Below the pieces are notes generated by a model that did not search any database, was not told the DNA's origin, and saw only the letters and a program-made list of their open reading frames with translations. A program made the position numbers and the translations under genes. A DNA stretch of 64,000 nucleotides from positions 62,001 through 126,000 of the forward strand of contig MARA01000049.1 of the NCBI GenBank assembly GCA_001792895.1, in the 5' to 3' direction. Every line of letters begins with the position of its first letter. The stretch's first letter is position 1. Shown here one piece after another: positions 15,007 to 49,601 of this stretch. The DNA comes from Lentinus brumalis. Taxonomy: Eukaryota; Basidiomycota; Agaricomycetes; Polyporales; Polyporaceae.

Positions 15007-17085
15007 TCACGGTGCGCCTGGACCAGATGGGACGGCTTCCATGTCGGTGAAGCCATCGGGGGCTTCGAAGTCAATTGCGCGATGCCATGCATTTAATATC
15101 AGCGTTCCTTTCGGGTTCATTGGGCATGGGGTGAATGCAAGCGTGAAAGCCTCCCACCACCCTGGCTCGTTCGGCTCTTCACACACAAACGTCTTCCTCG
15201 AATCCGGCCAAGTGGAGACATGATCGCCAGGACACTGATGTCCGTCGTGGGGCGCTTCATCCTCCGGAAGGTATTGAGCGTTCGCCCACAATGCAGGGCA
15301 AGCGACCTTGGAGGTGTCGAGAGCATGTAGGGAAGTAGATTTGGCTGACGGGAGAGAACACAGCCCGACTTGGATGGTCGTGATGGTGCGATAGAACGTG
15401 AGAAAGTGATCCAGAAGTCCCGACGAAGGCCAGATGGTGAAGGTGGCAGGAGGCTCGCCCGTCCACGGGAGCTGCACCTTGTCGACGAACACCTTGCACG
15501 GTTGAGATGAACTGGCCAATGTCTGGATGTTATGCTCCGGGAACCGAAAAGGCGGACGAAGAGCGTGGTTGAGGGGAATGGGTGGAATGCGCAGGACGGG
15601 GCTCTGCTCCAGTGGCGCGGACTGGATTATGTAGATGTCCGTCCACACCCTCGTAGTGCATGCGTCCTTCATGGAGTCACGTAGTCCTAGGAATACGAGA
15701 CGAGCAGCAGGATTCGGATAAACACCAACGGCATACGTCGGTCCCCACTGATCGGCATCCGCAGGTACTGGGCTGAGCACGAGGAGGATCGGGAATCCCT
15801 CCTGGTCTCGCCAACACAGATCTGCTAATGTATAGGAGCCGAACTCGACGACAGGGAGATGAGCCATGACACCGTGCGGGGTGATCGATAGGGTCACAAC
15901 ACGACCACCGCACAATGACGATGTTAGCGTGGCCTAGAAGAACACGGTGAGCATGTGCCTGAAGCGAACATCACTAGCGTACCTGGGCATCCGACTGGTC
16001 CAGCAATCCGTGCGGACTGTAGCGGACAACCCTGTCGTCGCGGGTTTTGTACATCCTTGGAGATGTGGCAAAAAGACCGAAGTTGGCGAGTGAGTAAGAG
16101 TCGGCGTCGCGTGGTCTGCCCGGATCGCCCGCAAGGCTGCCCATACACTCCGATCCCCAGGCGAAGAGAGTCGTGTCCGCGCTCTTCTTCATGATCTCCT
16201 CCTGGAGCCGCTGGAACGCCTTGCTGCCCTCGCCGTACAGCGTCGGCATGTTGATGTCGAAGATACCGAGCAGGCAGTACGCTTCGTCTTCCAAACGGGT
16301 CGTCCTCCTCTCGACAGCCCAAGACATCCGTTCTCCGATGCTGAAGTCGTCCAACGACCGCTGCAGCGTCAAGAGGCTCACGGGAATATGCGCGGCCTTC
16401 TCGATCTCCGGCGCGAGGTCGACCTTTGTACCCATGGTCTCCCATTCCTTGGATAGAAAGAGGACGAGGCGGGGAGCGACGAGCTCCTGCAGCGTCCAGC
16501 CACGGCGATGCCACCGGCTCGCATGGAACTGCCCCCAGCCAGGCTGATGCCCGAGACTCGGATGAAACGCCTTGTCGGCATCAACGTCGTTCAGAAAGGC
16601 GTAGCAGACGCGAGAGAGGGCGTAATAGCGGAACATGGAGTTGATGGCCTCCGAGAGCTCCGCGCTGCTTGTCTTGTCGATGCAGCAAGTGTCGATCCAC
16701 ACCCATCTGTGGCCATGTCGCTCCGCGAGCTCGCAGGATCGTTTGATCTTCTCGCATGCAAGATCGCGCGGGTTCTGGCCTTTCTGGGCGCACTTCGCGC
16801 GGAGGTGCTGGAGGTCTTGAAATGTCTGCTCTTCCAGGCCCCAGACGTGAGAGAGAATCGCGTAGCCTCCCTCGACAGCGTCCGGGGAGACGAAGTACTG
16901 CAGCTCTGCGCGACTGCATCAGTGGGACCGCAAAACGCTTGTTGGTCTTGTTGGGGCCAATAAGAGCCATCAAGATGAACAAGCCGCAAGAGCACAGCAC
17001 TTGTCGGTCTTGTTGGCCCGAACAAGCGCCAACAAGATCAACAAGTGTTTTACGGTTCCACTGATGTGGAGCTGAGCAGCCACAT
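15007..17085 (-). pseudogene. HET2-A: full-length HET gene disrupted by a 150 bp inverted-repeat element
   Basis: The ancestral gene had exon 1 (start 17085, end 15983), a 49 bp intron (15982-15934, donor gtacgc) and exon 2 (15933-15007, 308 residues). This gives about 625 residues, close to HET1. The HET motifs are intact: WIDTCCIDKTSSAEL, RGWTLQELVAP and EDEAYCLLGIFDINMPTLYGEG. Exon 2 has LSITPHGVMAHLPVVEF, PPFRFPEHN and C.GDHVSTWPDSRKTF. The element at 16917-17066 splits codon 7 and brings an in-frame stop after 11 codons. Translation could restart only at an internal ATG (16702), inside the HET domain. This is the only HET2 copy with the complete C-terminal exon, and it is the left edge of the tandem array. 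Confidence 0.88.
16917..17066. mobile_element. MITE-like element with about 38 bp terminal inverted repeats
   Basis: Copies B to E show the empty site, gcgactggagctgag. In copy A, 150 bp starting catcagtggga and ending tccactgatg lie between duplicated TG dinucleotides. The two ends are inverted repeats of about 38 bp differing at four positions, all transitions. A 17-mer of the form cttgtYggtcttgttgg occurs at 16938-16954 and 17000-17016, with a near-copy inverted at 17029-17045. There is no coding capacity, so it needs a transposase in trans. The superfamily is unassigned. Confidence 0.75.
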
Positions 17086-17136
17086 GCTTGTAGTCGCAGT
17101 GAATGCGATGCAAGGTGAGAGCGCATCTCACTCTTT

Positions 17137-17199
17137 CTTATAACCAGAACTCACAACACGAGTGTATTTAAGGTAATCACTGCCGTATGTCAATTACGG
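17137..17199 (-). promoter_or_regulatory. HET2-A promoter elements: TATA-like box and inverted repeat
   Basis: On the minus strand, TTATAAG (17137-17143) lies about 55 bp upstream of the ATG. The inverted repeat ccgta-tgtcaat-tacgg lies at 17183-17199. Both are kept in all five copies. Confidence 0.5.
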
Positions 17200-17399
17200 T
17201 GCGAGTCTTCGAGGGTATCAGCCCGACAGCTGGTACCCAAATCGACTTGTTACTTATCAATCAGCAGTAATCGGCAGTAAGCAAGATACTCGTACTTCGT
17301 CAATACGTTAGAGCCAAGTTGCGGTAGTCTCGCAGATGATGCATGGAGAGGAGGAGGAGGAGTAGACCGTGTCTTATCCGAGTACTCGTTGAGGCTTTG

Positions 17400-19240
17400 A
17401 GTATCAACACGGTCCGTACGTGCGCGCTCGACGCCACCCGATCGATGACGACATGCGGCGCACAGTGCACTCGCTCTCTCGACTCCTCCGCCTGCCCGCA
17501 TCTCAGACAAAGACCAGTCCGCGTCCGTGCCACGTCGCTCGCCCTCGGCCACGCTCGCACCTGCAGCCGCCCTCCTCTGTGCTCTCCCACCTTTGCGTCC
17601 CTCAGTCCGTCGCTCATGCTACGCCAGACTGCCTCTTCGCGCGTCCCTCTCGCCTGCCGCCCGTTCTCGCTTGGCTCGACCGCATACAGTCATGCAAGAC
17701 GCAAGCTCCTCACCCCGGACGTGGGCACGCGTGGTATGCCGCATCTCTCCTCCCTGCCTCCTTGCTTCTTGCGCCGCCGTGTCGCTGTATCTCTCCCCTC
17801 GGTCGTACATCCTCCCTTGCATCCTCCCCATGAACGCTACCCTCTGGGAACCACACGCAAGCACACCGCTGTTCAACGTTCGCGGCTCCGCGAGGCATTC
17901 CGCCGTTCATCGCCCTGCTACGCCTCGCGCCCCAATTCTTGTGCGTCTACGCGCCTATGTAGAGTCAGACACTGCAAGCATGGTACGTCGCATTGCTCTC
18001 GTTACATGTTCTGTACTAATCTTGTGTAATCTACCATGCTTCCCGAGCAGCTAAACTACCGTGAGTGCCCACCAAGTCACCGCACCTCGCACCTCGTACC
18101 CGCCCTTCGTCCTCCTCGGCTCACTGTCCCCTGCACCGATCTCACGGCGAGGCTAACTTCAGTCCGCTCCCCCTGCACATGCAGACCGAGGGCTTTCGCA
18201 AACGCGGCGCCGTACCAGAGCTTCTTCAACGTCTTTCCGAGCGTCGCCCTCTCGCCTCAGCCGCGGACATCCCGTTGGCATACACCGGTCGACGGACGGT
18301 ATCTCACCGCCGCTCACTGAAGCTGGCGATGTCGACGCGCCCTTGCGCTCACACGAACAGCCCTCGCAGCACCCGCTCAACGACATACAGAAGCTCACTA
18401 CGGAATCCCGGGCGCGTGGTCTCGCCGTCGTAGCGCGTCGCGGCCGCCGCATCACTGCCGGTGTTCGTGCTGGTAAGTACTGTACACGCCGGTCAGTGAG
18501 ATGCGTCACATTCAGCTGATCAACTTACCCGGTCCGCGCGCAGCGACAACAGGGACGCGCCGGCGTTGCCGCTATGCTACGTACGAGGTCCACACTGACT
18601 TGTCTATTTACCTCCCTCACTCACGAGCATCCCCCGGCCGCACGCCCATCTCGCTCGCGCGATCCCACCCCTGCTGAGAAGAGTACACGCCCGACGCCGC
18701 CGCGCTGGCATCTGTAGTCACGGTGAGTCCAGGGCATGCACACATGGCGTACGCGCGCTCACCGACTCCGGGGTCAGACACTGGCAGCTGGTGCTCACGG
18801 CGCGTCGGTCAGTGCTCCCGTGTGCAGGTACGTGATGCGGATTCCGGAACTCACCTGCGGACTCGTACTGTGCTTCAATCATGGCCGGCTGGCCGTGCGG
18901 CGCGAGCGGCGAGGAGCGAGAGCAGCTGTGGACGAGGTGAGTGGGCACGCAGCACGCTGCAGGAGGTCGAGGAAGGTACGTACCGGGCGGTGTCAAGAAC
19001 GCTGGGAGAGCGCAGCGCGGACGGCTGTCAACGTGGGTGAGCAGGACGGGGGCAAGGTACGTGTGTGCGCCGTGTGTCGAGCCGCTCACCTCGTTTGTTA
19101 TAGCATGGACGCGTGCGTGTTCGGTTCGGAGCCATCCGCGGTGCGTCCCAGCACCGTCGATGCGCGCAGGCGACGGCGCGGACCGAACGTCACTCCGCAT
19201 CTGCGCTCGGGCGAGCGATCGAGCGGTACGTGTACTTAAG
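17400..19240 (+). other. U1 spacer, first block: possible decayed spliced gene, unrecognised
   Basis: Several donor/acceptor pairs are visible on the plus strand, for example gtacgt near 17983 to gagcag at 18050, with a ctaat branch-like site, and gtaagt near 18474. Open segments between them change frame near 18300, so no continuous reading frame could be built. It may be a relic or an RNA gene. No product is recognised. Confidence 0.25.
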
Positions 19241-20032
19241 TACTTGAGAGGGCGGTGTCATGATGTCGAGGCAGCGTTCAAGCTGCACGAAATGTCGATG
19301 TCCCTTCGTCCTGCATGTTCGCGGCCGAGCTCAGGCTGAGAGTGAATAGATCTGGTTCCTCCTCCCCCGTGTCATTCGTCCAGTCTGTTGCGTGCCGACC
19401 TCGTCGGCGGCCTTGTGTGCTTCAACAATGCGTGTTCTCGCCGCTCGTCTTCTAGTAAGTAATAGCTGAGGAGGACGACCACTTGACTCGAATGCACAGG
19501 GCTTGCGGCTGTGATGTGTGGATGGATGCACTGTGTGCCTGGCTTGAGTTCTGTTTGTCGTTTGATCCTTGCGTGCCGTGTTGAGTCCCGAACGGTTGCC
19601 TTCTGGGAAGCGAGTCCCTCTTCTGCTGACCTGTGTCATGGATGGGCTGCTCGGCCGAGAAGTGCCAGTGCGAATATTCGGTAGTACTAGGCATGATGGT
19701 CGTCATCAGGATTGGACAGCTGGACGCTTCGCTCCTGTAGTCCAGGACGGCCACATTGATGAGCTCCCGGTTTCTCATCTGTGTGATGTTGTCTACATTG
19801 AGCTTCCAGCCTCAGGCCGCCGTAATGGTCACTGCGCTATCGTGTGTTTGAGCTTTTCATGGATGAGAAGGCAGGACTGGGAGGATGCGAGTTGCAGACA
19901 GCGAGCATGACTGGGAAGCCGGAGACATCTCGCTACCTGTATCCTGAGGTCCGCGAGGTCCGTGTGCTGCGATGCCCAGCAGCTACGTATTGATGACCAG
20001 GGTCCAGGCGGTTACTCGAGTTACGAGCCCGC
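19241..20032. other. U1 spacer, no convincing gene
   Basis: Overlapping ORFs occur on both strands (for example 19452-19778 minus and 19569-19910 plus), recurring in all units because of DNA identity. Neither has a recognised motif. Confidence 0.4.
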
Positions 20033-20276
20033 CGGCATCGTCGCGAGCGAGCAGTCGGAATATTCGGATGCGCGAAAGTGATTGTCATTGTAATTTGTGA
20101 GAATACAGATACCGACATACAACAGGGATCGTGGGGGATAGTCTAGTCACTCTATGAGCTTCTGGACAGTGAGGACAGATATATGTAGCACTGCCAAACT
20201 GTGCAGCATTGGATGTACTAAAGAACTTGAACGGTCAAGAGCCCTTGCACGTCTGACACGGGAGGACAGGACACAT
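20033..20276 (-). pseudogene. Zinc-ribbon-like ORF, U1 copy with an in-frame stop
   Basis: The counterpart of the 79-residue ORF at 28147-27908. The pattern PCQTCKGS...YICPHC is kept, but the codon after the GS pair is TGA (20237-20235), where the other copies have CGA (Arg). Confidence 0.45.
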
Positions 20277-22868
20277 GCCATGAATGGCGGCGAGGCGAGG
20301 AACGTTGAACTGAGCGCGATGTGAACGCGCAGGACACGCGGCGAGAGGATTCAGGGAAGGACATGTAGGTTGCCGGGAGACGGCCTCATTGTAAGCGAGG
20401 CGTCGAGGAATCGATGCCGTGGTGGAGGATCAACTTGAAGGTCGCTTGAATTTATTGTAGGACACATACTTAGTCGAGGCGTCGAGGAATCGATGCCGTG
20501 TGCGAGGATCAAGGTCGCTTGAATATCCGATTGCCTTCAAACACCTGAGAACGTGCGTTCCCTGCCGTACAAGTCGGTACGGCGCACGCCTGTATCCGAG
20601 TTTAGACGTCAGTGCGACATCATGACAGAAGGTTAGTTTCTCGCCGTGTACGAGACTGTCCTGGTCAGATATCAAACGTACCTCGCAGTCCAGTCCTGCC
20701 GAGTGTCAATAGGAAACGTTCATCGTCCGGGTTCTGGCTGTATGTCAGATGTCTCCCACGTGAATCTATTACCAGCACGGAGCGAGCACTGTCACCAGGC
20801 CGTGCCGCAGATACTAAGTACATGGTATATGCGGTCTTGGGTCACAGTGACCGTACAGCATGATTCTTTCGGGCAATCAACTGCTAGCAGAAGCAGAAAG
20901 GAGATATCTTGTCAGTGCTGCGATATTTCTGCGGTATCCCGAGAGCTGCGCAACAATGATTGAAAGCGTACCTAGTAACGCCGCCAGAAACGTAAGGTCC
21001 CGAAGACAGTCGAGCCATCGTGCTTGCGTGCGGGATTGGTGCATGGTCGCCGGTGCGTGCTGCACAACTGTGTCCAATTTCCGGCACACTCGAGCATCGA
21101 GGCAGAGGAACCGCCGCGATGGCCGGCCCGTTCCGAGTTTACGTTGGACCTCCGCCGAGCACGTTCGCGGCCGCGGCTTCTGGAGACAATGTCAGCGGGG
21201 TGCAGGCTGCATCGAGCGAACCTGTCCTCCGACTTGCGTACTACTTCATGCAGCTGAGGCTCTACAATGTCTCGCTGCTTGTCCGCGCTTCACGCTCGAG
21301 ATCGCTCTCCCGGCAGTCGACTGCTAGTAAAGCCTGAGAAGATGCGGTCAGTTACCTCATGTTTCCCGGGCGCGGAGGGAGACAGTTCGAGGAAGGGAAG
21401 CGTACCGGATGTGGAGGGTTACTCGGAGTATCTCGGAGTCGTGCTTGCCTCCCGAATCCGGATGATTGTTGCACAATATTATTGCGAAGAGCCCGTTCGA
21501 TGCGACAGCGTCATGGGTGTAAATTGCGGCGTTGTCCGGCCGCGGCTGTCGATATTCATGCAAAAGATTAGCGAGGTCAGACTAAATGGCGAACACCGAC
21601 TAAACGGCGAACGCACACTGCAGTAGTGACAGAATAACCATATCTTGAGGTCCTGATGAGATGACTTGCCTAAGGGGTCGTATCCAGTAAGTACTCTTGC
21701 CTGCCAGTGTGCGTCTGGTGTATCCGAATTTCCGGGACCTGCGTCCTGTTCGATATCATGCTGGAACAAGTGACGGCGGTTGGCGTACCTCGACAGAATA
21801 AAGTACCACGCACAGTCTTTTGATCCTGCCGAAGGCATCATGATGCTGCCCCGCGAGCCTCCGGGTTCTGGTCTCCTCGTCCTAGAATTGCTCACTTCAA
21901 GTGGCTATTGCGCACCGGAATACAGATGTTCTTGAAGCCATGCCTACTCGAGAGCCGCCCTGAATGGTGGCAGTCAGCCGACAAAAGTACAGGAGGAGTT
22001 CATTTCTGCTGCAGAAGGTGAGTCTAAAAGCAGCAGGCGACGCCGTGCGTGCATACCTGAGGAATGCGTCAGACGACGCTTCGTCCCGAGGGTGAGGCGT
22101 GTTCGCTCCACCGTAGCGGTGCCCAAAGCGGTTGCCCCTGGCCGTGTTTCGCAGGTCTTCCTACAGTTCCTGGTCCTGTCGGTATATGGCATGTTAGTAG
22201 TCGAGCGCAGGCCGCGAGGATGTGAATGATTACCTGCATTTGAGCCTGTGACTGCACGAGGCTGATCCGAAGCTCGATGGAGTTCCACCTGCGAGACGAG
22301 ATCCGACGCATCGATAGTGGTATTTGCAGAGATGAAGCGAGAAGCAAAGGACGCTGGCATGTTCCGGGATGTTGCGGCCGCCGCTCCGAGTCTCTTGTAC
22401 ACACGGCGGGGTTGCTCTCACCCGGCGGTGTCGTCTAGACCGTTCCTCGTGCGTTGCCATCCCGTCACCACCCTCGACGCGTCTTCCTTCCTCCCCTCTC
22501 GCGCAGCAAGCCCTCTGCTGTCGTCTCGCTTTGCTAAGGCCTCGCCATCCGAGACGTAGAACATATCAGTGCCGCTGGAGAAGCTGGGAGGCTTGGACTC
22601 AAGGCGGGAGGAGACGAGGAGACGACGCCAGATGTGGTAGCTAACGTCCGGGATGAGTTTGTGTACATGGCAGACAATCTGCGGTTTACTTACTAAGTTC
22701 TTCCCGCATCACGCCCACGGCCCGTGCTGTACACGAGAGCATGGTAGGACGGACGGCGGCCAGCCGATTCCGAGGTAAGTAGATTCGAGAGAGCACCAGC
22801 CTCGGCTGCCAGTGCTTCCCGGAGGGCCGTCTCCTTGTCTGCTCGCTGGCGAACTCGCAACATCCCTG
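20277..22868. other. U1 spacer, middle part: degenerate, no gene assigned
   Basis: Includes the single U1 copy of the block that is duplicated in U2 (about 20940-21490) and minus-strand coding-like fragments near 22250-22560 that look like exons of a helical or coiled-coil protein, with splice-like junctions but no continuous frame. No family is recognised. Confidence 0.35.
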
Positions 22869-23192
22869 CTACTGGCTAGCCAAGACAAACGGTGAGCTGT
22901 CCACGACGCCTGTCGAGAAGCCACTCACGTACAGTCTATGCATCCGAGAGAGGACAGCGATGGCCCGCCGGGAGAGCTCGGGTACCTCGGGAGTTGTCAG
23001 GCGCACAGTGCACTGTCGAGGCACAGTGGCCCGTTCGAGTAGACGTTCGTAGTGTACTCGTCTTTCACGCGCGTTGTCCGCGGTCGTGGTCGTCGTGGTC
23101 GAGACGAGAGCGCGTACGAGGCTGTGCAGGCCCGAAATCCGAAGTTGGCAATCAATTGCCTCTTCCTGTGTTATGCTGGAGGAGAGGACCAT
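22869..23192 (-). other. Conserved coding-like block (helical), U1 copy
   Basis: A 107-codon minus-strand ORF, recurring in U2-U4 with substitutions but no frame disruption. It contains LHSLVRALV, a Thr run, NARERRVHY and LSRRAIAVLSRMHRLY. The composition suggests a helical protein. It is probably one exon of a larger, partly decayed gene. Confidence 0.3.
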
Positions 23193-23675
23193 ATGAGCGT
23201 ATTCTTCGAGTGTACTCTGCGCGTCGGAGGAGTAGGGAAAGCCAAAAAAATATATTTGTTTCTACGCTACCACATGCTCGGAAATCCCGTGTTCGAGACA
23301 GCGCTACTTGTGGCTAACATCGTGAGAAGCACGCGGTATCCGAAGAGCGAGAATGCGCCGCGCTGGGGTTCCTCGCTCTACGACACGCAGAACCGGCACA
23401 GCTCGTGTGCCCCGAGGTCCTCCCCGCTCCTGCACCCCGCAATCCCCTCATCCTCTCCCTGTGTCCCGCTCGTATTGCAGTGTGCTCGCCGTAATGCCAC
23501 CCTGGACGCAGGCTAAGTACAGAGACACGCTCAGCGCGGCTCGACGCACCTCGGAGTGCAGCGCAAGTCTCCACAGACATAGCGCACCGCGTGCAGACGG
23601 ACCTGTGCAGCACGAAGTGTTATATCAACAAAACATCATCCACCACAGAACATCCACCCACAGAACACCGTAAGG

Positions 23676-24987
23676 TCAGGAATCCTGCCGTGGAGGGAAG
23701 TATTCGCCTGCCCAGAACGGCCGCCTGCGTGCTGCGAGCAGTCCCGGGTCCCGGCAGCCGCACGCGACGGCGCGGATCCAGATCGACGCCCCGAGCACCG
23801 CATACGTCGGCCCCGCAGGTACCGGGCTGAGCACGAGGAGGATCGGGAATCCCTCCTGGTCTCGCCAACACAGATCTGCCAATGTATAGGAGCCGAACTC
23901 GACGACAGGGAGATGAGCCATGACACCGTGCGGGGTGATCGATAGGGTCACAACACGACCACCGCACAATGACGATGTTAGCGTGGCCTAGAAGAACACG
24001 GTGAGCATGTGCCTGAAGCGAACATCACTAGCGTACCTGGGCATCCGACTGGTCCAGCAATCCGTGCGGACTGTAGCGGACAACCTTGTCGTCGCGGGTT
24101 TTGTACATCCTTGGAGATGTGGCAAAAAGACCGAAGTTGGCGAGTGAGTAAGAGTCGGCGTCGCGTGGTCTGCCCGGATCGCCCGCAAGGCTGCCCATAC
24201 ACTCCGATCCCCAGGCGAAGAGAGTCGTGTCCGCGCTCTTCTTCATGATCTCCTCCTGGAGCCGCTGGAACGCCTTGCTGCCCTCGCCGTACAGCGTCGG
24301 CATGTTGATGTCGAAGATACCGAGCAGGCAGTACGCTTCGTCTTCCAAACGGGTCGTCCTCCTCTCGACAGCCCAAGACATCCGTTCTCCGATGCTGAAG
24401 TCGTCCAACGACCGCTGCAGCGTCAAGAGGCTCACGGGAATATGCGCGGCCTTCTCGATCTCCGGCGCGAGGTCGACCTTTGTACCCATGGTCTCCCATT
24501 CCTTGGATAGAAAGAGGACGAGGCGGGGAGCGACGAGCTCCTGCAGCGTCCAGCCACGGCGATGCCACCGGCTCGTATGGAACTGCCCCCAGCCAGGCTG
24601 ATGCCCGAGACTCGGATGAAACGCCTTGTCGGCATCAACGTCGTTCAGAAAGGCGTAGCAGACGCGAGAGAGGGCGTAATAGCGGAACATGGAGTTGATG
24701 GCCTCCGAGAGCTCCGCGCTGCTTGTCTTGTCGATGCAGCAAGTGTCGATCCACACCCATCTGTGGCCATGTCGCTCCGCGAGCTCGCAGGATCGTTTGA
24801 TCTTCTCGCATGCAAGATCGCGCGGGTTCTGGCCTTTCTGGGCGCACTTCGCGCGGAGGTGCTGGAGGTCTTGAAATGTCTGCTCTTCCTGGCCCCAGAC
24901 GTGAGAGAGAATTGCGTAGCCTCCCTCGACAGCGTCCGGGGAGACGAAGTACTGCAGCTCTGCGCGACTGGAGCTGAGCAGCCACAT
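23676..24987 (-). CDS. HET2-B: HET-domain protein with truncated, novel C-terminus (420 aa)
   Basis: Exon 1 is 24987-24037 (317 codons) and carries the complete HET domain with the same motifs as HET2-A. A 49 bp intron with a gtacgc donor precedes exon 2, 23987-23676. Exon 2 begins like HET2-A (ATLTSSLCGGRVVTLSITPHG) but leaves the family sequence soon after PTYAV and reads into spacer DNA, giving an unrelated basic tail that ends ...FPPRQDS. It lacks the codons for D-A-D-Q-W just before the junction. The promoter keeps the TATA-like box. There is no frameshift, so a HET-only protein could be made. Confidence 0.8.
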
Positions 24988-25038
24988 GCTTGTAGTCGCA
25001 GTGAATGCGATGCAAGGTGAGAGCGCATCTCACTCTTG

Positions 25039-25101
25039 CTTATAACCAGAACTCACAACACGAGTGTATTTAAGGTAATCACTGCCGTATGTCAATTACG
25101 G
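25039..25101 (-). promoter_or_regulatory. HET2-B promoter elements
   Basis: Minus-strand TTATAAG at 25039-25045, about 52 bp upstream of the ATG, and the inverted repeat ccgta-tgtcaat-tacgg at 25085-25101. Confidence 0.5.
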
Positions 25102-25419
25102 TGCGAGTCTTCGAGGGTATCAGCCCGACAGCTGGTACCCAAATCGACTTGTTACTTATCAATCAGCAGTAATCGGCAGTAAGCAAGATACTCGTACTTC
25201 GTCAATACGTTAGAGCCAAGTTGCGGTAGTCTCGCAGATGATGCATGGAGAGGAGGAGGAGGAGTAGACCGTGTCTTATCCGAGTACTCGTTGAGGCTTT
25301 GAGTATCAACACGGTCCGTACGTGCGCGCTCGACGCCACCCGATCGATGACGACATGCGGCGCACAGTGCGCTCGCTCTCTCGACTCCTCGCATCTCAGA
25401 CAACAACCAGTCCGCGTCC

Positions 25420-27108
25420 GTGCCACGTCGCTCGCCCTCGGCCACGCTCGCACCTGCAGCTGCCCTCCTCTGTGCTCTCCCACCTTGGCCTCCCTCAGTC
25501 CGTCGCTCATGCTACGCCAGCCTCTCTCTTCGCGCGTCCCTCTCGCCTGCCGCCCGTTCTCGCTTGGCTCGACCGCATACAGTCATGCAAGGCGCAAGCT
25601 CCTCACCCCGGACGTGGGCACGCGTGGTATGCCGCTTCTCTCCTCCCTGCCTCCTTGCTCCTTGCGCCGTCGTGTCGCTGTATCTCTCTGCTCAGTCGTA
25701 CATCCTCCCCATGATCGCTACTCTCTGGGAACCCCACGCAAGCACACCGCTGTACGCATCCCCAAGTGGTGTTGTTCCCGCCGTTTATCGCCTTGCGCCC
25801 CACTCTCGTGCGTCTACGCGCCGACCGTCGCTGCTAGGGTCAGACACCGCAAGCATGGTGCGTCGTATTGCTCCCGTTACATGTTCTGTACTAACCTTGC
25901 ATGATTCACCATGCTACCCCTCCATGTCCTACAGCTAGGCCACCACGAGTGCTTACAAGTCACCGCACCTCGCGCCCGCACCTCGTCCTCCTCGGCTCAA
26001 CGTCCCCTGCACGAATCTCACGGCACCTTCAGTCCCCTCGCCCCGCACGTGCAGACAGACGTCCTTCACAAACACGGCGCCGTACCAGAGCCTCTTCAAC
26101 GTCTTTCCGAGCGTCGCCCTCTCGCCTCAGCCGCGGACATCCCGTTGGCATACACCGGTCGACGGACGGTATCTCACCGCCGCTCACTGAAGCTGGCGAT
26201 GTCGACGCGCCCTTGCGCTCACACGAACAGCCCTCGCAGCACCCGCTCAACGACATACAGAAGCTCACTACGGAATCCCGGGCGCGTGGTCTCGCCGTCG
26301 TAGCGCGTCGCGGCCGCCGCATCACTGCCGGTGTTCGTGCTGGTAAGTACTGTACACGCCGGTCAGTGAGATGCGTCACATTCAGCTGATCAACTTACCC
26401 GGTCCGCGCGCAGCGACAACAGGGACGCGCCGGCGTTGCCGCTATGCTACGTACGAGGTCCACACTGACTTGTCTATTTACCTCCCTCACTCACGAGCAT
26501 CCCCGGCCGCACGCCCATCTCGCTCGCGCGATCCCACCCCTGCTGAGAAGAGTACACGCCCGACGCCGCCGCGCTGGCATCTGTAGTCACGGTGAGTCCA
26601 GGGCATGCACACATGGCGTACGCGCGCTCACCGACTCCGGGGTCAGACACTGGCAGCTGGTGCTCACGGCGCGTCGGTCAGTGCTCCCGTGTGCAGGTAC
26701 GTGATGCGGATTCCGGAACTCACCTGCGGACTCGTACTGTGCTTCAATCATGGCCGGCTGGCCGTGCGGCGCGAGCGGCGAGGAGCGAGAGCAGCTGTGG
26801 ACGAGGTGAGTGGGCACGCAGCACGCTGCAGGAGGTCGAGGAAGGTACGTACCGGGCGGTGTCAAGAACGCTGGGAGAGCGCAGCGCGGACGGCTGTCAA
26901 CGTGGGTGAGCAGGACGGGGGCAAGGTACGTGTGTGCGCCGTGTGTCGAGCCGCTCACCTCGTTTGTTATAGCATGGACGCGTGCGTGTTCGGTTCGGAG
27001 CCATCCGCGGTGCGTCCCAGCACCGTCGATGCGCGCAGGCGACGGCGCGGACCGAACGTCACTCCGCATCTGCGCTCGGGCGAGCGATCGAGCGGTACGT
27101 GTACTTAA
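25420..27108 (+). other. U2 spacer, first block: candidate spliced plus-strand gene, unrecognised
   Basis: Possible intron gtgcgt (about 25858) to ctacag (25935) with a ctaac branch-like site, and gtaagt (about 26343) to gcgcag (26412). Open reading between them includes HGAVPEPLQRLSERRPLAS in one frame and LTEAGDVDAPLRSHEQPSQ in another, suggesting an indel near 26165. A series of very short exon-like pieces follows to about 27100. No domain is recognised, and it is identical in U3. Confidence 0.25.
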
Positions 27109-27907
27109 GTACTTGAGAGGGCGGTGTCATGATGTCGAGGCAGCGTTCAAGCTGCACGAAATGTCGATGTCCCTTCGTCCTGCATGTTCGCGGCCGAGCT
27201 CAGGCTGAGAGTGAATAGATCTGGTTCCTCCTCCCCCGTGTCATTCGTCCAGTCTGTTGCGTGCCGACCTCGTCGGCGGCCTTGTGTGCTTCAACAATGC
27301 GTGTTCTCGCCGCTCGTCTTCTAGTAAGTAATAGCTGAGGAGGACGACCACTTGACTCGAATGCACAGGGCTTGCGGCTGTGATGTGTGGATGGATGCAC
27401 TGTGTGCCTGGCTTGAGTTCTGTTTGTCGTTTGATCCTTGCGTGCCGTGTTGAGTCCCGAACGGTTGCCTTCTGGGAAGCGAGTCCCTCTTCTGCTGACC
27501 TGTGTCATGGATGGGCTGCTCGGCCGAGAAGTGCCAGTGCGAATATTCGGTAGTACTAGGCATGATGGTCGTCATCAGGATTGGACAGCTGGACGCTTCG
27601 CTCCTGTAGTCCAGGACGGCCACATTGATGAGCTCCCGGTTTCTCATCTGTGTGATGTTGTCTATAGTGAGCTTCCAGCCTCAGGAATACGCGGTGGTCA
27701 CTGCGCTACCGTGTGCTTGAGCTTTTCCATGGATGAGAAGGCAGGACTGGGAGGATCCGAGTTGTAGACAGCGTGCATGACTGGGAAGCCGGGAGACATC
27801 TCGCTACCTGCATTCTGAGGTCCGCGAGGCCCGCATGCTGCAATGACCAGGCTACGTATTGATGACCAGGGTCCAGGTGGTACACTCGGGTTACGAGCCC
27901 GCCGGCA
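27109..27907. other. U2 spacer, no convincing gene
   Basis: Overlapping ORFs on both strands without motifs. It contains the diagnostic indel near 27663-27690 at which U2 agrees with U4 but not U3. Confidence 0.4.
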
Positions 27908-33334: not shown

Positions 33335-36134
33335 TGCGAGTCTTCGAGGGTATCAGCCCGACAGCTGGTACCCAAATCGACTTGTTACTTATCAATCAGC
33401 AGTAATCGGCAGTAAGCAAGATACTCGTACTTCGTCAATACGTTAGAGCCAAGTTGCGGTAGTCTCGCAGATGATGCATGGAGAGGAGGAGGAGGAGTAG
33501 ACCGTGTCTTATCCGAGTACTCGTTGAGGCTTTGAGTATCAACACGGTCCGTACGTGCGCGCTCGACGCCACCCGATCGATGACGACATGCGGCGCACAG
33601 TGCGCTCGCTCTCTCGACTCCTCGCATCTCAGACAACAACCAGTCCGCGTCCGTGCCACGTCGCTCGCCCTCGGCCACGCTCGCACCTGCAGCTGCCCTC
33701 CTCTGTGCTCTCCCACCTTGGCCTCCCTCAGTCCGTCGCTCATGCTACGCCAGCCTCTCTCTTCGCGCGTCCCTCTCGCCTGCCGCCCGTTCTCGCTTGG
33801 CTCGACCGCATACAGTCATGCAAGGCGCAAGCTCCTCACCCCGGACGTGGGCACGCGTGGTATGCCGCTTCTCTCCTCCCTGCCTCCTTGCTCCTTGCGC
33901 CGTCGTGTCGCTGTATCTCTCTGCTCAGTCGTACATCCTCCCCATGATCGCTACTCTCTGGGAACCCCACGCAAGCACACCGCTGTACGCATCCCCAAGT
34001 GGTGTTGTTCCCGCCGTTTATCGCCTTGCGCCCCACTCTCGTGCGTCTACGCGCCGACCGTCGCTGCTAGGGTCAGACACCGCAAGCATGGTGCGTCGTA
34101 TTGCTCCCGTTACATGTTCTGTACTAACCTTGCATGATTCACCATGCTACCCCTCCATGTCCTACAGCTAGGCCACCACGAGTGCTTACAAGTCACCGCA
34201 CCTCGCGCCCGCACCTCGTCCTCCTCGGCTCAACGTCCCCTGCACGAATCTCACGGCACCTTCAGTCCCCTCGCCCCGCACGTGCAGACAGACGTCCTTC
34301 ACAAACACGGCGCCGTACCAGAGCCTCTTCAACGTCTTTCCGAGCGTCGCCCTCTCGCCTCAGCCGCGGACATCCCGTTGGCATACACCGGTCGACGGAC
34401 GGTATCTCACCGCCGCTCACTGAAGCTGGCGATGTCGACGCGCCCTTGCGCTCACACGAACAGCCCTCGCAGCACCCGCTCAACGACATACAGAAGCTCA
34501 CTACGGAATCCCGGGCGCGTGGTCTCGCCGTCGTAGCGCGTCGCGGCCGCCGCATCACTGCCGGTGTTCGTGCTGGTAAGTACTGTACACGCCGGTCAGT
34601 GAGATGCGTCACATTCAGCTGATCAACTTACCCGGTCCGCGCGCAGCGACAACAGGGACGCGCCGGCGTTGCCGCTATGCTACGTACGAGGTCCACACTG
34701 ACTTGTCTATTTACCTCCCTCACTCACGAGCATCCCCGGCCGCACGCCCATCTCGCTCGCGCGATCCCACCCCTGCTGAGAAGAGTACACGCCCGACGCC
34801 GCCGCGCTGGCATCTGTAGTCACGGTGAGTCCAGGGCATGCACACATGGCGTACGCGCGCTCACCGACTCCGGGGTCAGACACTGGCAGCTGGTGCTCAC
34901 GGCGCGTCGGTCAGTGCTCCCGTGTGCAGGTACGTGATGCGGATTCCGGAACTCACCTGCGGACTCGTACTGTGCTTCAATCATGGCCGGCTGGCCGTGC
35001 GGCGCGAGCGGCGAGGAGCGAGAGCAGCTGTGGACGAGGTGAGTGGGCACGCAGCACGCTGCAGGAGGTCGAGGAAGGTACGTACCGGGCGGTGTCAAGA
35101 ACGCTGGGAGAGCGCAGCGCGGACGGCTGTCAACGTGGGTGAGCAGGACGGGGGCAAGGTACGTGTGTGCGCCGTGTGTCGAGCCGCTCACCTCGTTTGT
35201 TATAGCATGGACGCGTGCGTGTTCGGTTCGGAGCCATCCGCGGTGCGTCCCAGCACCGTCGATGCGCGCAGGCGACGGCGCGGACCGAACGTCACTCCGC
35301 ATCTGCGCTCGGGCGAGCGATCGAGCGGTACGTGTACTTAAGTACTTGAGAGGGCGGTGTCATGATGTCGAGGCAGCGTTCAAGCTGCACGAAATGTCGA
35401 TGTCCCTTCGTCCTGCATGTTCGCGGCCGAGCTCAGGCTGAGAGTGAATAGATCTGGTTCCTCCTCCCCCGTGTCATTCGTCCAGTCTGTTGCGTGCCGA
35501 CCTCGTCGGCGGCCTTGTGTGCTTCAACAATGCGTGTTCTCGCCGCTCGTCTTCTAGTAAGTAATAGCTGAGGAGGACGACCACTTGACTCGAATGCACA
35601 GGGCTTGCGGCTGTGATGTGTGGATGGATGCACTGTGTGCCTGGCTTGAGTTCTGTTTGTCGTTTGATCCTTGCGTGCCGTGTTGAGTCCCGAACGGTTG
35701 CCTTCTGGGAAGCGAGTCCCTCTTCTGCTGACCTGTGTCATGGATGGGCTGCTCGGCCGAGAAGTGCCAGTGCGAATATTCGGTAGTACTAGGCATGATG
35801 GTCGTCATCAGGATTGGACAGCTGGACGCTTCGCTCCTGTAGTCCAGGACGGCCACATTGATGAGCTCCCGGTTTCTCATCTGTGTGATGTTGTCTATAT
35901 GAGCTTCCAGCCTCAGGCGCGTGGTCACTGCGCTACCGTGTGCTTGAGCTTTTCCATGGATGAGAAGGCAGGACTGGGAGGATCCGAGTTGTAGACAGCG
36001 TGCATGACTGGGAAGCCGGGAGACATCTCGCTACCTGCATTCTGAGGTCCGCGAGGCCCGCATGCTGCAATGACCAGGCTACGTATTGATGACCAGGGTC
36101 CAGGTGGTACACTCGGGTTACGAGCCCGCCGGCA
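33335..36134. other. U3 spacer, first block; same content as U2
   Basis: Candidate plus-strand spliced region (33653-35341) and overlapping ORFs, matching U2 base for base over most of its length as far as I compared. No product is recognised. Confidence 0.35.
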
Positions 36135-36374
36135 TCATCGCGAGCGAGCAGTCGGAATATTCAGATGCGCAAAGTGGCTGTCATTGTGAGAATACATTGG
36201 ATACCGACGTACAACAGCCTGAGGGATCGCGGGGGATAGTCTAGTCACTCTACGGGCTTCTGGACAGTGAGGACAGATATATGTAGCACTGCCAAACTGT
36301 GCAGCATTGGATGTACTGAAGAACTTGAACGGTCGAGAGCCCTTGCACGTCCGACACGGGAGGACAGGACGCAT
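36135..36374 (-). CDS. Zinc-ribbon-like small protein (79 aa), U3 copy
   Basis: Protein identical to the U2 copy; same CxxC...CPHC pattern. Confidence 0.35.
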   Translation of the reverse strand: MRPVLPCRTCKGSRPFKFFSTSNAAQFGSATYICPHCPEARRVTRLSPAIPQAVVRRYPMYSHNDSHFAHLNIPTARSR

Positions 36375-36673
36375 GCCATGAATGGAGGCGAGGCGAGGAA
36401 CGTTGAACTGAGCGCGATGCGAACGCGCAGGACACGCGAGAGGATTCAGGGAAGGTCATGTACGTCGCCGGGAGACGGCCTCATTGTAAGCGAGGCGTCG
36501 AGGAATTGACACCGTGGTGGAGGATCTTGGCAAGGTCGCTTGGATATCCTATTGCATTGCACCTGGGGATGCGCGTTCCCTGCGGCCGTAACAGAAGGTT
36601 AGTTTGCTGCCGTGTACGCGACCGTCCCGGTCAGAGATCGGAGGTACCTCCTGCCGAGTGTCGATAGGAAATG

Positions 36674-37429
36674 TCACAGTCTGTCGTCCGGTTTCGAGCT
36701 ATACATCTCCCACGCCAATCTAGTCGGAGCGAGCACTGTCACCAGGCCGTGCCGCAAGTACATGGTGCATGTGGGCTGAGGGTACAGTGGGCTCGCAGCT
36801 TGGCCAGTGACCGCGCAGTGTGGTTCTCTCGGAGTCCCAGGCAATCGACTGCTAGCAGAAGCAGAGAGGAGGTATCTTGTCAGTGGTACGATGTTTCTGC
36901 GGAATCCTGAGAGCTGCGCAACGATCACTGAAAGCGTACCGAGGGACACCATGACAGCCAGAAACGTAAGGTGCGGCAGAGACAGTGTCTCGAGGACAGT
37001 CGAGCCATCGTGCTCGCGTGCGGCATTGGTCCATGTTTGCCGGCCTCGAATAAGCCTGCCAAGTATGGTGTTAAGTATCCCGGTCCGATAGGTCGGGTTC
37101 TGCATGGTTGTGTACGATCCGGCACGCTCGAGCATCGAGGCAGAGGAACCGATGGCCGGCCTCCTTCCAGGTTTACGTTGGACCTCCGCCGAGCACGCTC
37201 GCGGCCGCGGCTTCTGGAGACGGTGACATTCGGCTGCAGGCTGCATCGAGCGAACCTGTCCTCCGACTTGCGTACTTACTACTACTTCATCAAGCTGAGG
37301 CTCGACAATGTCTCGCCGCTTGTCTGCGCTCCATGCTCGAGATCGCTCTCCCGGCAGTCGACTGCTAGTAAAGCCTGAGAGCATGCGGTCAGTTACCTCA
37401 TGTTCCCGGGAGGCAGAGGGAGACGGCAC
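36674..37429 (-). other. Longest spacer ORF of U3 (251 codons), unrecognised
   Basis: An uninterrupted minus-strand ORF identical to 45215-44460 in U4. It includes the counterpart of the U2 duplicated block. Composition is Ser/Arg-rich with a hydrophobic stretch (LPHLTFLAVMVSLGTLSVIVA). U1 and U2 counterparts are shorter and interrupted, so the open frame may be accidental. Confidence 0.2.
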
Positions 37430-38901
37430 GGGAAGGGAAGCGTACCGGATGTGAGGCTGTGGACGCCACCCGGCAGGGCGACTCGGAGTAACTCCGAGTC
37501 GTGCTTGCCTCCCGATCCCGGATGAATGTTGCAGAATATTATTGCAAGGAGCCCATTCGCGTCATGGACTTGAATGGACGCGAATTGCTGCGTCGTCCGA
37601 CCGAGGCTGCCTATTTGAGTGTAAGAGATTATTGAGATCGGACTAAACGGAGAGTGAACAGTAGGGACGGAATAATCCTGATACCTCAAAGTACCTTGAG
37701 GTCCTTATGAGTTGACTTGCCTATGTGGTCGTACCCAGTACTCTTGCCTGTGCGTCGCGCTATATCCGAATTTCTGGGACCTGAGAATTGCTTCAAGCTT
37801 GACGTGCCTGCGTCTGTTCGATATCGCGTATTTCCACGCGCAGTCTTCTGGTCCGGCAGAGATGATGCTGCCCTCGAGCCGCCTGCGTCCTGTCTCCTCG
37901 TCCTGTGGTGGTTGTTTCGCACGGGGATCCATGGTTCTTGGAGCCGTGCCTACTCGAGAGCCTCTCGGAATGGCGGGGCTCACCCAAAATAAGTACGGGC
38001 AAGAGTTCCTTTCTGTTGCATAAGGTAAGTCCGAAAGCAGCAAGCGACGTCGTGCATGCATACCTGAGGAATGCTTCAGACCACACTTCTTTCCTCAGGG
38101 CGTATTCGCTCCACCGTAGCGGTGCCCTGTCCGTCACTCTCTCGGAGCGGTTGTGCCTGGCCGCCGTGTCTTGCAGGTCTTCCTACAGCTCCTGGTCCTG
38201 TCGGCATATGGTATGTTAGCTGAGCGCAAGCTGCAGCCTGTGAGGATGACCTGCATTCGATCCGGTGACTGCATGAGGCCCACGATGTTACCCGTGGTAC
38301 GCGAGATGATAGATCTGAAACGTTGTCAGTGGTTTTCGCAGGAGTCGAAGCGAGGGATGTTATGCGCACAGGAACGCTGAAATGTTCCGGGATATTGCGG
38401 CCGGCTCGTTGACTCGTTGAGTGCCTCACAAACACGCTTCTCTCCCACCGATGGATTCGTTCTGACCGTCACGGTTGTTCTGGCTATCCCATCTTCTCGC
38501 CACGCAGCCATGGCGTCTTCCTTCCTCCCATCTCGCCCTGCTTGAAGCCCACTGCTGACGTCTCGCTTTGCCAAGGCCCCGCCATCCGAGATGTACTCTA
38601 CAACATCCCAGTGCCGCTGGAGAAGCTGGGAGGCTTGGACTCCAGACGAGGAGACGCACGCTAGGTGTGGTAGTAGCTAACGTCCGGGGTGAGTTTGTGT
38701 GCATGTCAGACAATCTGCGGTCCACTCACTTCCCGCATCGCGCCCACGGCCCGTGCTGTAGACGAGAGCACAGAAGGACGGACGGCGGACCGTCAATTCC
38801 GAGGTAAGTAGATTCCATGCTACTGGGATTTGTCGCAGCCTCCGCCGCTTCCTGGAGGGCCGTCTCCTTGTCTGCTCAATGGCGGACTCGCAACATCCCT
38901 G

Positions 38902-39219
38902 CTACTCGCTAGCCAAGACAAACGGTGAGCTGTCCATGACGCCTGTCGAGAAGCCACTCACATACAGTCTATGCATCCGAGAGAGGACGGCGATGGCCCG
39001 CCGGGAGAGCTCGGGTACCTCGGGAGTTATCAGGCGCACAGTGCACTGTCGAGGCACATTGCCCCGGTCGAGTAGACGTCCGTAGTGTACTCGTCTTTCA
39101 CGCGCGTTGTCCGCGGTTGTGGTTGTCGTGGTCGGAACGAGAGCGCGTACAAGGCTGTGCAGGCGCGAAATCCGGCCATCGATTGCCTCTTGCTGTGTTG
39201 TCCTGGTGTCAAGGACCAT
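38902..39219 (-). other. Conserved coding-like block (helical), U3 copy
   Basis: Identical in protein to the U2 copy at 31412-31095. Confidence 0.3.
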
Positions 39220-39554
39220 ATGAGCGTGTTCTTCGAGTGTACTGTGCGCGTCGGAGGAGTAGGGAAAGGCAGAAAATATATTTGTTTCTACGCTACCACA
39301 TGCCCGGAAATCCCGCGTTCGAGACAGCGCTACGTGTGGCTAACGTCGTGAGAAGCACGCGGTATCCGAAGAGCAAGAACGCGCCGCGCTGGGGTTCCTC
39401 GCTCCACGACACGCACAGCTCGTGTCCTGAAGACACCGGTGTCCTCCCCCACTCTGCACCCCACAATCCACTCATCCTCTCCCTGTGTCCCGCTCGTATT
39501 GCAGTGTGCTCGCCGTAATGCCATCCTGGACGCAGGCTGAGTACAGAGACGCGT

Positions 39555-41009
39555 TCAGCACGGATCGACGCACCTCGGAGTGTGGCTCGAGTCCCCACAG
39601 ACATAGCGCACCGCGTGCAGACGGACCTGTACAGCACGAAGTGTTATATCGACAAAACATCCTCCACGCACACCACCCACAGAACACCGTAAGGTCAGAA
39701 ATCCTGCCGTGGAGGGAAGTATTCGCCTGCCCAGAGTGGCCGCCTGCGTGCCGCGAGCAGTCCCGGGTCCCGGCAGCCGCACGCGACGGATCGACGCCCC
39801 GAGCACCGCATACGTCGGTCCCCACTGATCGGCGTCCGCAGGTACCGGGCTGAGCACGAGGAGGATCGGGAATCCCTCCTGGTCTCGCCAACACAGATCT
39901 GCCAATGTATAGGAGCCGAACTCGACGACAGGGAGATGAGCCATGACACCGTGCGGGGTGATAGATAGGGTCACAACACGGCCACCGCACAGTGACGATG
40001 TTAGCGTGGCCTAGAAGAACACGGTAAGCATGTGCCTGAAGCGAACATCACTAGCGTACCTGGGCATCCGACTGGTCCAGCAATCCGTGCGGACTGTAGC
40101 GGACAACCCTGTCGTCGCGGGTTTTGTACATCCTTGGAGATGTGGCAAAAAGACCGAAGTTGGCGAGTGAGTAAGAGTCGGCGTCGCGTGGTCTGCCCGG
40201 ATCGCCCGCAAGGCTGCCCATACACTCCGATCCCCAGGCGAAGAGAGTCGTGTCCGCGCTCTTCTTCATGATCTCCTCCTGGAGCCGCTGGAACGCCTTG
40301 CTGCCCTCGCCGTACAGCGTCGGCATGTTGATGTCGAAGATACCGAGCAGGCAGTACGCTTCGTCTTCCAAACGGGTCGTCCTCCTCTCGACAGCCCAAG
40401 ACATCCGTTCTCCGATGCTGAAGTCGTCCAACGACCGCTGCAGCGTCAAGAGGCTCACGGGAATATGCGCGGCCTTCTCGATCTCCGGCGCGAGGTCGAC
40501 CTTTGTACCCATGGTCTCCCATTCCTTGGATAGAAAGAGGACGAGGCGGGGAGCGACGAGCTCCTGCAGCGTCCAGCCACGGCGATGCCACCGGCTCGCA
40601 TGGAACTGCCCCCAGCCAGGCTGATGCCCGAGACTCGGATGAAACGCCTTGTCGGCATCAACGTCGTTCAGAAAGGCGTAGCAGACGCGAGAGAGGGCGT
40701 AATAGCGGAACATGGAGTTGATGGCCTCCGAGAGCTCCGCGCTGCTTGTCTTGTCGATGCAGCAAGTGTCGATCCACACCCATCTGTGGCCATGTCGCTC
40801 CGCGAGCTCGCAGGATCGTTTGATCTTCTCGCATGCAAGATCGCGCGGGTTCTGGCCTTTCTGGGCGCACTTCGCGCGGAGGTGCTGGAGGTCTTGAAAT
40901 GTCTGCTCTTCCTGGCCCCAGACGTGAGAGAGAATTGCGTAGCCTCCCTCGACAGCGTCCGGGGAGACAAGTACTGCAGCTCTGCGCGACTGGAGCTGAG
41001 CAGCCACAT
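39555..41009 (-). pseudogene. HET2-D: HET gene with a 1-base deletion near codon 11-14
   Basis: The ATG at 41009 is kept, but exon 1 (41009-40060) is 950 nt instead of 951. The missing base is in the short run at about 40977-40980 (agacaagt, against agacgaagt in C and agacaaagt in E). The frame from the normal start is lost before the HET domain; a frame reaching it has only a GTG at its start. Exon 2 (40010-39555) is as in HET2-E. It is either a true recent inactivation or a single-base sequence error, because the rest is identical to E. Confidence 0.75.
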
Positions 41010-41062
41010 GCTAGTGTAGTCACAGTGAATGCGATGCAAGGTGAGAGCGCATCTCACTCTTG

Positions 41063-46687: not shown

Positions 46688-47005
46688 CTACTCGCTAGCC
46701 AAGACAAACGGTGAGCTGTCCATGACGCCTGTCGAGAAGCCACTCACATACAGTCTATGCATCCGAGAGAGGACGGCGATGGCCCGCCGGGAGAGCTCGG
46801 GTACCTCGGGAGTTATCAGGCGCACAGTGCACTGTCGAGGCACATTGCCCCGGTCGAGTAGACGTCCGTAGTGTACTCGTCTTTCACGCGCGTTGTCCGC
46901 GGTTGTGGTTGTCGTGGTCGGAACGAGAGCGCGTACAAGGCTGTGCAGGCGCGAAATCCGGCCATCGATTGCCTCTTGCTGTGTTGTCCTGGTGTCAAGG
47001 ACCAT
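46688..47005 (-). other. Conserved coding-like block (helical), U4 copy
   Basis: Identical in protein to the U2 and U3 copies. Confidence 0.3.
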
Positions 47006-47340
47006 ATGAGCGTGTTCTTCGAGTGTACTGTGCGCGTCGGAGGAGTAGGGAAAGGCAGAAAATATATTTGTTTCTACGCTACCACATGCCCGGAAATCCC
47101 GCGTTCGAGACAGCGCTACGTGTGGCTAACGTCGTGAGAAGCACGCGGTATCCGAAGAGCAAGAACGCGCCGCGCTGGGGTTCCTCGCTCCACGACACGC
47201 ACAGCTCGTGTCCTGAAGACACCGGTGTCCTCCCCCACTCTGCACCCCACAATCCACTCATCCTCTCCCTGTGTCCCGCTCGTATTGCAGTGTGCTCGCC
47301 GTAATGCCATCCTGGACGCAGGCTGAGTACAGAGACGCGT

Positions 47341-48796
47341 TCAGCACGGATCGACGCACCTCGGAGTGTGGCTCGAGTCCCCACAGACATAGCGCACCGC
47401 GTGCAGACGGACCTGTACAGCACGAAGTGTTATATCGACAAAACATCCTCCACGCACACCACCCACAGAACACCGTAAGGTCAGAAATCCTGCCGTGGAG
47501 GGAAGTATTCGCCTGCCCAGAGTGGCCGCCTGCGTGCCGCGAGCAGTCCCGGGTCCCGGCAGCCGCACGCGACGGATCGACGCCCCGAGCACCGCATACG
47601 TCGGTCCCCACTGATCGGCGTCCGCAGGTACCGGGCTGAGCACGAGGAGGATCGGGAATCCCTCCTGGTCTCGCCAACACAGATCTGCCAATGTATAGGA
47701 GCCGAACTCGACGACAGGGAGATGAGCCATGACACCGTGCGGGGTGATAGATAGGGTCACAACACGGCCACCGCACAGTGACGATGTTAGCGTGGCCTAG
47801 AAGAACACGGTAAGCATGTGCCTGAAGCGAACATCACTAGCGTACCTGGGCATCCGACTGGTCCAGCAATCCGTGCGGACTGTAGCGGACAACCCTGTCG
47901 TCGCGGGTTTTGTACATCCTTGGAGATGTGGCAAAAAGACCGAAGTTGGCGAGTGAGTAAGAGTCGGCGTCGCGTGGTCTGCCCGGATCGCCCGCAAGGC
48001 TGCCCATACACTCCGATCCCCAGGCGAAGAGAGTCGTGTCCGCGCTCTTCTTCATGATCTCCTCCTGGAGCCGCTGGAACGCCTTGCTGCCCTCGCCGTA
48101 CAGCGTCGGCATGTTGATGTCGAAGATACCGAGCAGGCAGTACGCTTCGTCTTCCAAACGGGTCGTCCTCCTCTCGACAGCCCAAGACATCCGTTCTCCG
48201 ATGCTGAAGTCGTCCAACGACCGCTGCAGCGTCAAGAGGCTCACGGGAATATGCGCGGCCTTCTCGATCTCCGGCGCGAGGTCGACCTTTGTACCCATGG
48301 TCTCCCATTCCTTGGATAGAAAGAGGACGAGGCGGGGAGCGACGAGCTCCTGCAGCGTCCAGCCACGGCGATGCCACCGGCTCGCATGGAACTGCCCCCA
48401 GCCAGGCTGATGCCCGAGACTCGGATGAAACGCCTTGTCGGCATCAACGTCGTTCAGAAAGGCGTAGCAGACGCGAGAGAGGGCGTAATAGCGGAACATG
48501 GAGTTGATGGCCTCCGAGAGCTCCGCGCTGCTTGTCTTGTCGATGCAGCAAGTGTCGATCCACACCCATCTGTGGCCATGTCGCTCCGCGAGCTCGCAGG
48601 ATCGTTTGATCTTCTCGCATGCAAGATCGCGCGGGTTCTGGCCTTTCTGGGCGCACTTCGCGCGGAGGTGCTGGAGGTCTTGAAATGTCTGCTCTTCCTG
48701 GCCCCAGACGTGAGAGAGAATTGCGTAGCCTCCCTCGACAGCGTCCGGGGAGACAAAGTACTGCAGCTCTGCGCGACTGGAGCTGAGCAGCCACAT
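47341..48796 (-). CDS. HET2-E: HET-domain protein with novel C-terminal tail (468 aa)
   Basis: Exon 1, 48796-47846 (317 codons), is intact and carries the whole HET domain. Exon 2, 47796-47341, encodes 151 residues. It follows HET2-A through LSPVPADADQWGPTYAV, crosses the array junction at 47594 and reads into spacer sequence, giving a Cys/Arg-rich tail ending ...SHTPRCVDPC. Tail length differs from B and C. It is the rightmost copy, with the conserved promoter, and is the best candidate for an active truncated HET2. Confidence 0.8.
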
Positions 48797-49123
48797 GCTA
48801 GTAAGTAGTCACAGTGAGTGCGAATGCAAGCTCAGAGCGCATCTCGCTCTTTCTTATAACCAGAACTCACAAAACTGGTGTATTCCAGGTAACCACTGCC
48901 GTATGTCAATTACGGTGCGAGTCTTCGAGGGTTTCAGCCCGACGGTACCCACTGAATCGACTTGTTACTTCTTAATCAGCAGCAATCGGCGGTAAGCAAG
49001 ATACTCGTACTTCGTCAATACGTTAGAGCCAAGTTGCGGTAGACTCGCAGATGATGCATGGAGAGGAGGAGGAGGAGTAGACCGTGTCTTATCCGAGTAC
49101 TCGTTGAGGCTTTGAGTATCAAC
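47594..49123. repeat. Array unit U5, partial (holds HET2-E)
   Basis: Only the HET gene and about 330 bp of its upstream region are present. The spacer is missing and unique sequence begins at 49124. This is the right edge of the array. Confidence 0.85.
48853..48915 (-). promoter_or_regulatory. HET2-E promoter elements
   Basis: TATA-like box at 48853-48859 and inverted repeat at 48899-48915. This is the last conserved piece before the array ends at 49123. Confidence 0.45.
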
Positions 49124-49564: not shown

Positions 49565-49601
49565 ACTTGATAGCGCTGTTGCTTGAGCACTTATTGTCCA
49601 C

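Follow-up and report, generated by a model that had tools for sequence, protein, structure and literature searches.

The window analyzed here, a 64,000-nucleotide stretch of the Lentinus brumalis genome (positions 62,001-126,000 of the 280-kb contig C81, in an assembly of 53.4 Mb and 136 contigs), carries a tandem array of a gene with a HET domain. From a junction within the second exon of this gene, the truncation of four of its five copies, the private lesions of the copies and the mosaic identity between the repeat units, we infer that this is probably an older array, generated by a truncating tandem duplication and then homogenized by gene conversion and/or unequal crossing-over. A single assembly was analyzed, and the array is known here from assembly sequence alone.

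Exon 1 of the gene was found in five direct copies, at 15,759, 23,813, 32,046, 39,836, and 47,622 of the window, and all of the array genes (copies A to E) lie on the minus strand. The first-pass annotation of this DNA had described five head-to-tail HET copies with periods of 8069, 8212, 7796, and 7786 bp. The copies were recovered with lags of 8,054, 8,233, 7,790, and 7,786 bp between successive exons 1, the small gaps between both series depending on the anchor used. The count of five holds for exon 1 and not for whole units: unit E stops 327 bp upstream of its own ATG, near column 1,750 in the alignment of units, so the array consists of four complete units and a further 1.5 kb or so. Likewise, the right end of the extent originally proposed for the array (15731..49123) stands, and the left end does not, since the gene of copy A reaches left to 15,007; the repeat units themselves begin at the junction (15,728) and reach 49,123. 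The copies and limits of the array are as follows.

15007..17085, minus strand: copy A, with its ATG at 17085, exon 1 down to 15983, a 49-nt intron, and exon 2 at 15933-15007 (308 aa)
15728, no strand: junction in HET exon 2; to the left of 15,728 copy A is unmatched in B-E, which enter spacer there
23679..24987, minus strand: copy B; its exon 1 of 317 codons (24987-24037) is open, and its truncated exon 2 has an open frame at 23987-23679 and an unrelated tail
32029..33220, minus strand: copy C, exon 1 open, intron 32269-32221, exon 2 of 64 codons followed by an in-frame TAG
39558..41009, minus strand: copy D, with a 1-nt deletion right after the ATG, exon 2 truncated, unrelated tail
47344..48796, minus strand: copy E; its exon 1 (48796-47846) is open, and its truncated exon 2 has the tail seen in D
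49123, no strand: right end of the array, where copy E ends in the unit alignment

The HET-domain identity claimed at the outset was confirmed by the match of copy B to PF06985 (54.9 bits against a cut-off of 22.5, E 1.6e-14), and all five array copies exceeded this cut-off in a genome scan. Exon 2 of copy A had no Pfam match. Neither NACHT nor WD40 domains were found in the scanned frames of the unit, which sets the gene apart from the HET-NLR (hnwd-like) type. As to a possible TIR-like fold of the HET domain, a PDB sequence search gave no match up to E 1, and the predicted structure model (mean predicted local distance difference test score, pLDDT, of 35.3) was too poor for use.

The exon structure was read in copy C, where exon 1 comprises 317 codons (33,220-32,270). 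A 49-nt intron bounded by GT...AG separates it from exon 2. These intron limits were transferred to copy A by alignment offset, and splicing is thus predicted. A full-length C-terminus is present only in copy A (exon 2 of 308 codons), which aligned with a full-length paralog from contig C97 to residue 671 of 675 (E 1.8e-20) and with one from contig C74 to residue 644 of 676. In B-E, only the initial portion of exon 2 aligned with these paralogs. A decayed native C-terminus was searched for in B-E and was not found, and the 3' region of copy A had no match in them by blastn or tblastx. Since the match of B-E to copy A ends at 15,728 and this 3' region is missing from them, the four copies are 3'-truncated and run into the spacer. 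Additionally, a C-terminal profile built from five sequences matched B-E only up to position 49-60, and it matched the HET paralog at 11.5 kb, which is not a profile member, up to position 270. As the five sequences include copy A, its own match to the profile holds by construction. The open frames left on the exon 2 side have 103, 64, 151, and 151 codons in B, C, D, and E, respectively.

The copies also carry private lesions, namely, an insertion in A, an in-frame deletion in B, a stop in C, and a frameshift in D, whose HET domain is out of frame through the 1-nt deletion. Thus, an ATG-initiated frame is open through the HET domain in B, C, and E, is not open in D, and is split by the insertion in A.

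Despite these lesions, exon 1 is nearly uniform. The few-base differences previously claimed for B-E were borne out: among all five copies, 5 positions of the 951 bp vary (the insertion in A left out of the count), one of which coincides with the 1-nt gap in D. Along the whole unit, copy-to-copy identity swings between 100% and about 75% when measured in 250-column steps. Copies C and D are near-identical over nearly the whole unit, B and C only in its right part, and A and C fall to 75% in places, so the spacers are not uniformly recent. The longest identical runs measure 1,164 bp in A/B, 1,164 and 1,009 bp in A/C, 3,090 bp in B/C, and 3,884 bp in C/D. Despite its 1,164-bp run, the A/B pair holds 474 differences over 7,573 columns; the C/D pair holds 49 difference events over 7,774 columns, none of them within the 3,884-bp block. 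The main blocks are located as follows.

17137..23781, no strand: unit A spacer, non-coding in the tests applied, in which identical blocks alternate with diverged ones
18223..19795, no strand: homogenized non-coding block in A (26,093-27,664 in B; 34,326-35,897 in C), 1,573 bp with one 1-nt gap, A versus B/C
24577..27666, no strand: B/C identical block of 3,090 bp as placed in B, an exact match to C from 32,810
35921..39804, no strand: C/D identical block of 3,884 bp as placed in C, an exact match to D from 43,707

The B/C and C/D identical blocks occupy different parts of the unit, and the grouping of the copies shifts along it. At 18,223-19,796 there are no singletons in A, B, or C and 11 in D, the latter copy differing in part of the block. 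Copy A stands apart from B, C, and D at 17,499-18,223 (75 A singletons) and again at 22,812-23,455 (50), and between them, at 20,550-22,812, the copies split as AB|CD at 227 sites, together with 101 A and 77 B singletons. Identical blocks beside diverged ones, with copy groupings that change along the unit, are the pattern expected of concerted evolution. The observed longest identical run was reached in 0 of 2000 permutations for each of the six pairs (of ten) formed without the partial copy E.

The spacers look non-coding from their base changes and from domain scans. Mismatches among A, B, and C lack codon phase, and gap lengths divisible by three do not predominate. A Pfam scan of ten selected unit frames gave a single sub-threshold match, to another family, and an Rfam scan of the window gave nothing at the gathering threshold. 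We rejected the spacer as a dispersed transposon, as two 3.2-kb pieces of unit C matched contig C81 only, apart from one 86-bp match (76%), in a search that passes over very common words.

The sequence of events that we propose would start from a full-length HET gene, the ancestor of copy A, being tandemly duplicated with a breakpoint within exon 2. The extra copies would thereby have kept the whole N-terminal HET exon, the promoter, and the spacer and have lost about 240 C-terminal residues. The array would then have aged, its spacers diverging by up to 25%, and meanwhile non-allelic gene conversion and/or unequal crossing-over would have overwritten portions of it that include exon 1 with its upstream region, as well as the non-coding block. 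Because the broken copies A and D are as alike as the open ones, their uniformity is best accounted for by exchange, and purifying selection acting copy by copy explains it poorly. The array is most likely a birth-and-death cluster of HET genes, with exchange homogenizing its broken and open copies equally and with no more than three HET-only frames (those of B, C, and E) remaining usable. If expressed, these frames could serve as cell-death modules without the C-terminus of the family.

The genome offers further places to look for such homogenization. It holds at least 108 HET matches, counted by exon, of which 10 lie on C81, 13 on C74, and 5 on C97. Two further HET tandem arrays, both older, are located at 220-310 kb of C74 and 16-57 kb of C97. 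Six of the nine HET spacings at 225-285 kb of C74 measure 7.6-9.3 kb, and two of the four on C97 measure 7.8-8.3 kb. The spacers of these two arrays are related to one another and unrelated to those of the window, whose similarity to them (E 1e-4) is limited to the HET exons; a spacer common to the three arrays was thus rejected. A Plavaka transposase, of a kind linked to mushroom-forming fungi, lies within the C97 array; together with the many HET genes, it fits a basidiomycete origin of the DNA. On C74, two HET genes 17.3 kb apart, one of them frame-shifted in exon 1, share about 2.35 kb of near-identical sequence, with exact runs of 892, 404, 377, 229, and 221 bp against a permutation maximum of 168. 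To the right of this block, identity drops to 84-90%.

The array had initially been read as a recent amplification, and a single burst by rapid unequal crossing-over, with the spacer differences added later by fast mutation, would indeed leave exon 1 near-identical in five copies and the long exact runs of B/C and C/D. Those parts of B/C and C/D do support recent duplication or exchange; however, recency fails for other blocks, where A, B, and C are up to 25% apart beside identical sequence. Some mutation bias exists, as CpG is the commonest single context of the C/T (49 of 122) and G/A (39 of 121) changes in the left spacer of A and C. The same comparison holds 151 transversions beside 243 transitions, and these many transversions and the mixed contexts led us to reject the view that a process like repeat-induced point mutation (RIP) alone made the spacers diverge, the CpG bias notwithstanding. 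A single burst also predicts even divergence, and the copy grouping shifts along the unit, which makes repeated exchange in an older array the better account and one recent amplification quite improbable. It is also unlikely that the array is a functional dosage array, in which selection would maintain B, C, and E as several copies of a cell-death effector consisting of the HET part only. The open HET exon kept in these three copies would fit this idea, and reviews hold that the HET domain alone suffices for cell death (PMC10197012, PMC12881547). According to these reviews, the majority of HET genes have no allorecognition role. The ratio of nonsynonymous to synonymous substitution rates (dN/dS) of the HET domain, 0.14-0.28 in ten paralog comparisons with copy C, points in the same direction, for frames picked for being open (c97_51 and c74_235, with no recognized start or end, were dropped) and at dS values of 1.15-2.22, near saturation; it has no bearing on individual array copies. 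Such selection is at odds with the disruption of A and D, with the unlike tails of B-E, and with the early stop in C.

Several points weigh against an older, homogenized array. The 3,884 exact bases common to C and D, in an array drawn from one assembly, are what would be seen if units, these two above all, had been falsely duplicated by haplotype mixing or a mis-join. We consider such an artefact very unlikely, given that 49 difference events, all outside the block, separate C from D, that A, B, C, and D each carry a private lesion, and that several contigs start in telomeric TTAGGG repeats, although C81 does not. The permutation null presumes evenly spread differences, and there is no allele or outgroup to polarize the order of the array events. 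Since one homogenized block is non-coding, the exchange is not specific to HET. The left edge of the C74 block is not sharp, with 90-99% identity for about 0.8 kb and lower values beyond. A second C74 pair (251/268 kb) is 87-94% identical, no more than the sequence around it. For C97, one pair of genes was compared; exon 1 reaches only 78-86% there, and identity is highest, at 91-92%, over the 3' half. Local homogenization over a HET gene is consequently seen in the window and in one of two C74 pairs, and not in exon 1 of the C97 pair.

Three diverged HET paralogs flank the array, with about 66-72% nucleotide identity to its copies (at 12.6, 49.6, and 62.2 kb).

11516..13434, minus strand: diverged HET paralog oriented like the array, with both a HET and a C-terminal part
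49587..51517, plus strand: diverged HET paralog beside copy E, in the opposite orientation, with a 553-aa frame and the remaining C-terminus in another frame
62176..64000, plus strand: diverged HET paralog in the opposite orientation, running to the window end

A retroelement lies beside the HET cluster at 53110-59546, with RVT_2 (53678-55336), Pol_BBD (56419-57540), and two identical 557-bp end repeats, which mark it as probably a recent insertion; from RVT_2 and Pol_BBD, it is presumably of the Ty1/copia type. To the left of the cluster, 2519-3316 (minus strand) matches the NAD nucleotidase C-terminal domain PF21953, and 6993-7862 (plus strand) matches carnosine N-methyltransferase PF07942.

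The insertion in copy A is itself a low-copy repeated element, resembling a miniature inverted-repeat transposable element (MITE).

16917..17066, minus strand: palindromic insertion of about 150 bp with terminal inverted repeats (MITE-like), in exon 1 of copy A at codon 7

It also occurs at three other places in the genome, with 95-96% identity, and the copy in HET copy A is the only one with perfect ends. Two of these three sites have identical surroundings on contig C87 (129.3-130.9 and 119.7-121.2 kb); the pair shares 1,501 identical bp about 9.7 kb apart and represents either a duplicate made in assembly or a duplication of very recent date. Copy A would add to the usable frames if the insertion were spliced out. 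Elements of this kind might act as introns; introners have been reported in fungi (PMC4457414, PMC9860276).

The first-pass annotation gave weight to tandem amplification at this scale in a basidiomycete. That the scale is special for such a fungus finds no support, as an expansion of HET genes with suspected tandem duplications has been reported for Ganoderma lucidum, with 96 HET-domain genes and more than 10 on each of three scaffolds (PMC3342255); G. australe is likewise described as rich in HET domains (PMC8955403). The present genome resembles that of G. lucidum, a wood-decay basidiomycete, in its total of about 100 (108 HET matches here) and in their crowding on single contigs (13 on C74 and 10 on C81). 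Unlike the present analysis, the accessible part of the G. lucidum account gives no unit structure, spacers, truncation, or inter-copy exchange. In the NWD family of Podospora anserina (het-d/het-e), concerted evolution of the WD-40 repeats is reported to extend to pseudogenes (PMC1805685). The homogenization of broken copies is shared with that system, which differs in that the exchange there concerns WD-40 repeats of NACHT/WD40 genes and here a HET exon. As in incompatibility proteins outside the NLR family, the HET domain stands here without NLR parts, but four of the five array copies lack most of the C-terminus, and the allorecognition role and copy-number variation suggested by the first-pass annotation would be putative. 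Among the literature matches listed, judged by title and abstract opening, none describes tandem HET exons of a basidiomycete exchanging sequence.

A more far-reaching idea, which we regard as distinctly unlikely, is that the array would be a self-homogenizing bank of HET-only effectors. In such a bank, the promoter and HET exon would be kept alike and the C-terminus discarded in four of five copies, and a cell-death module would evolve in concert, its dose changed by unequal crossing-over between strains. The array is suited to asking whether HET-only proteins are used. Its private lesions and block-wise identity also make it convenient for measuring inter-copy exchange. Finally, because broken and open copies match in blocks and other blocks are old, the near-identity of tandem immune-type genes is by itself no proof of recent amplification.

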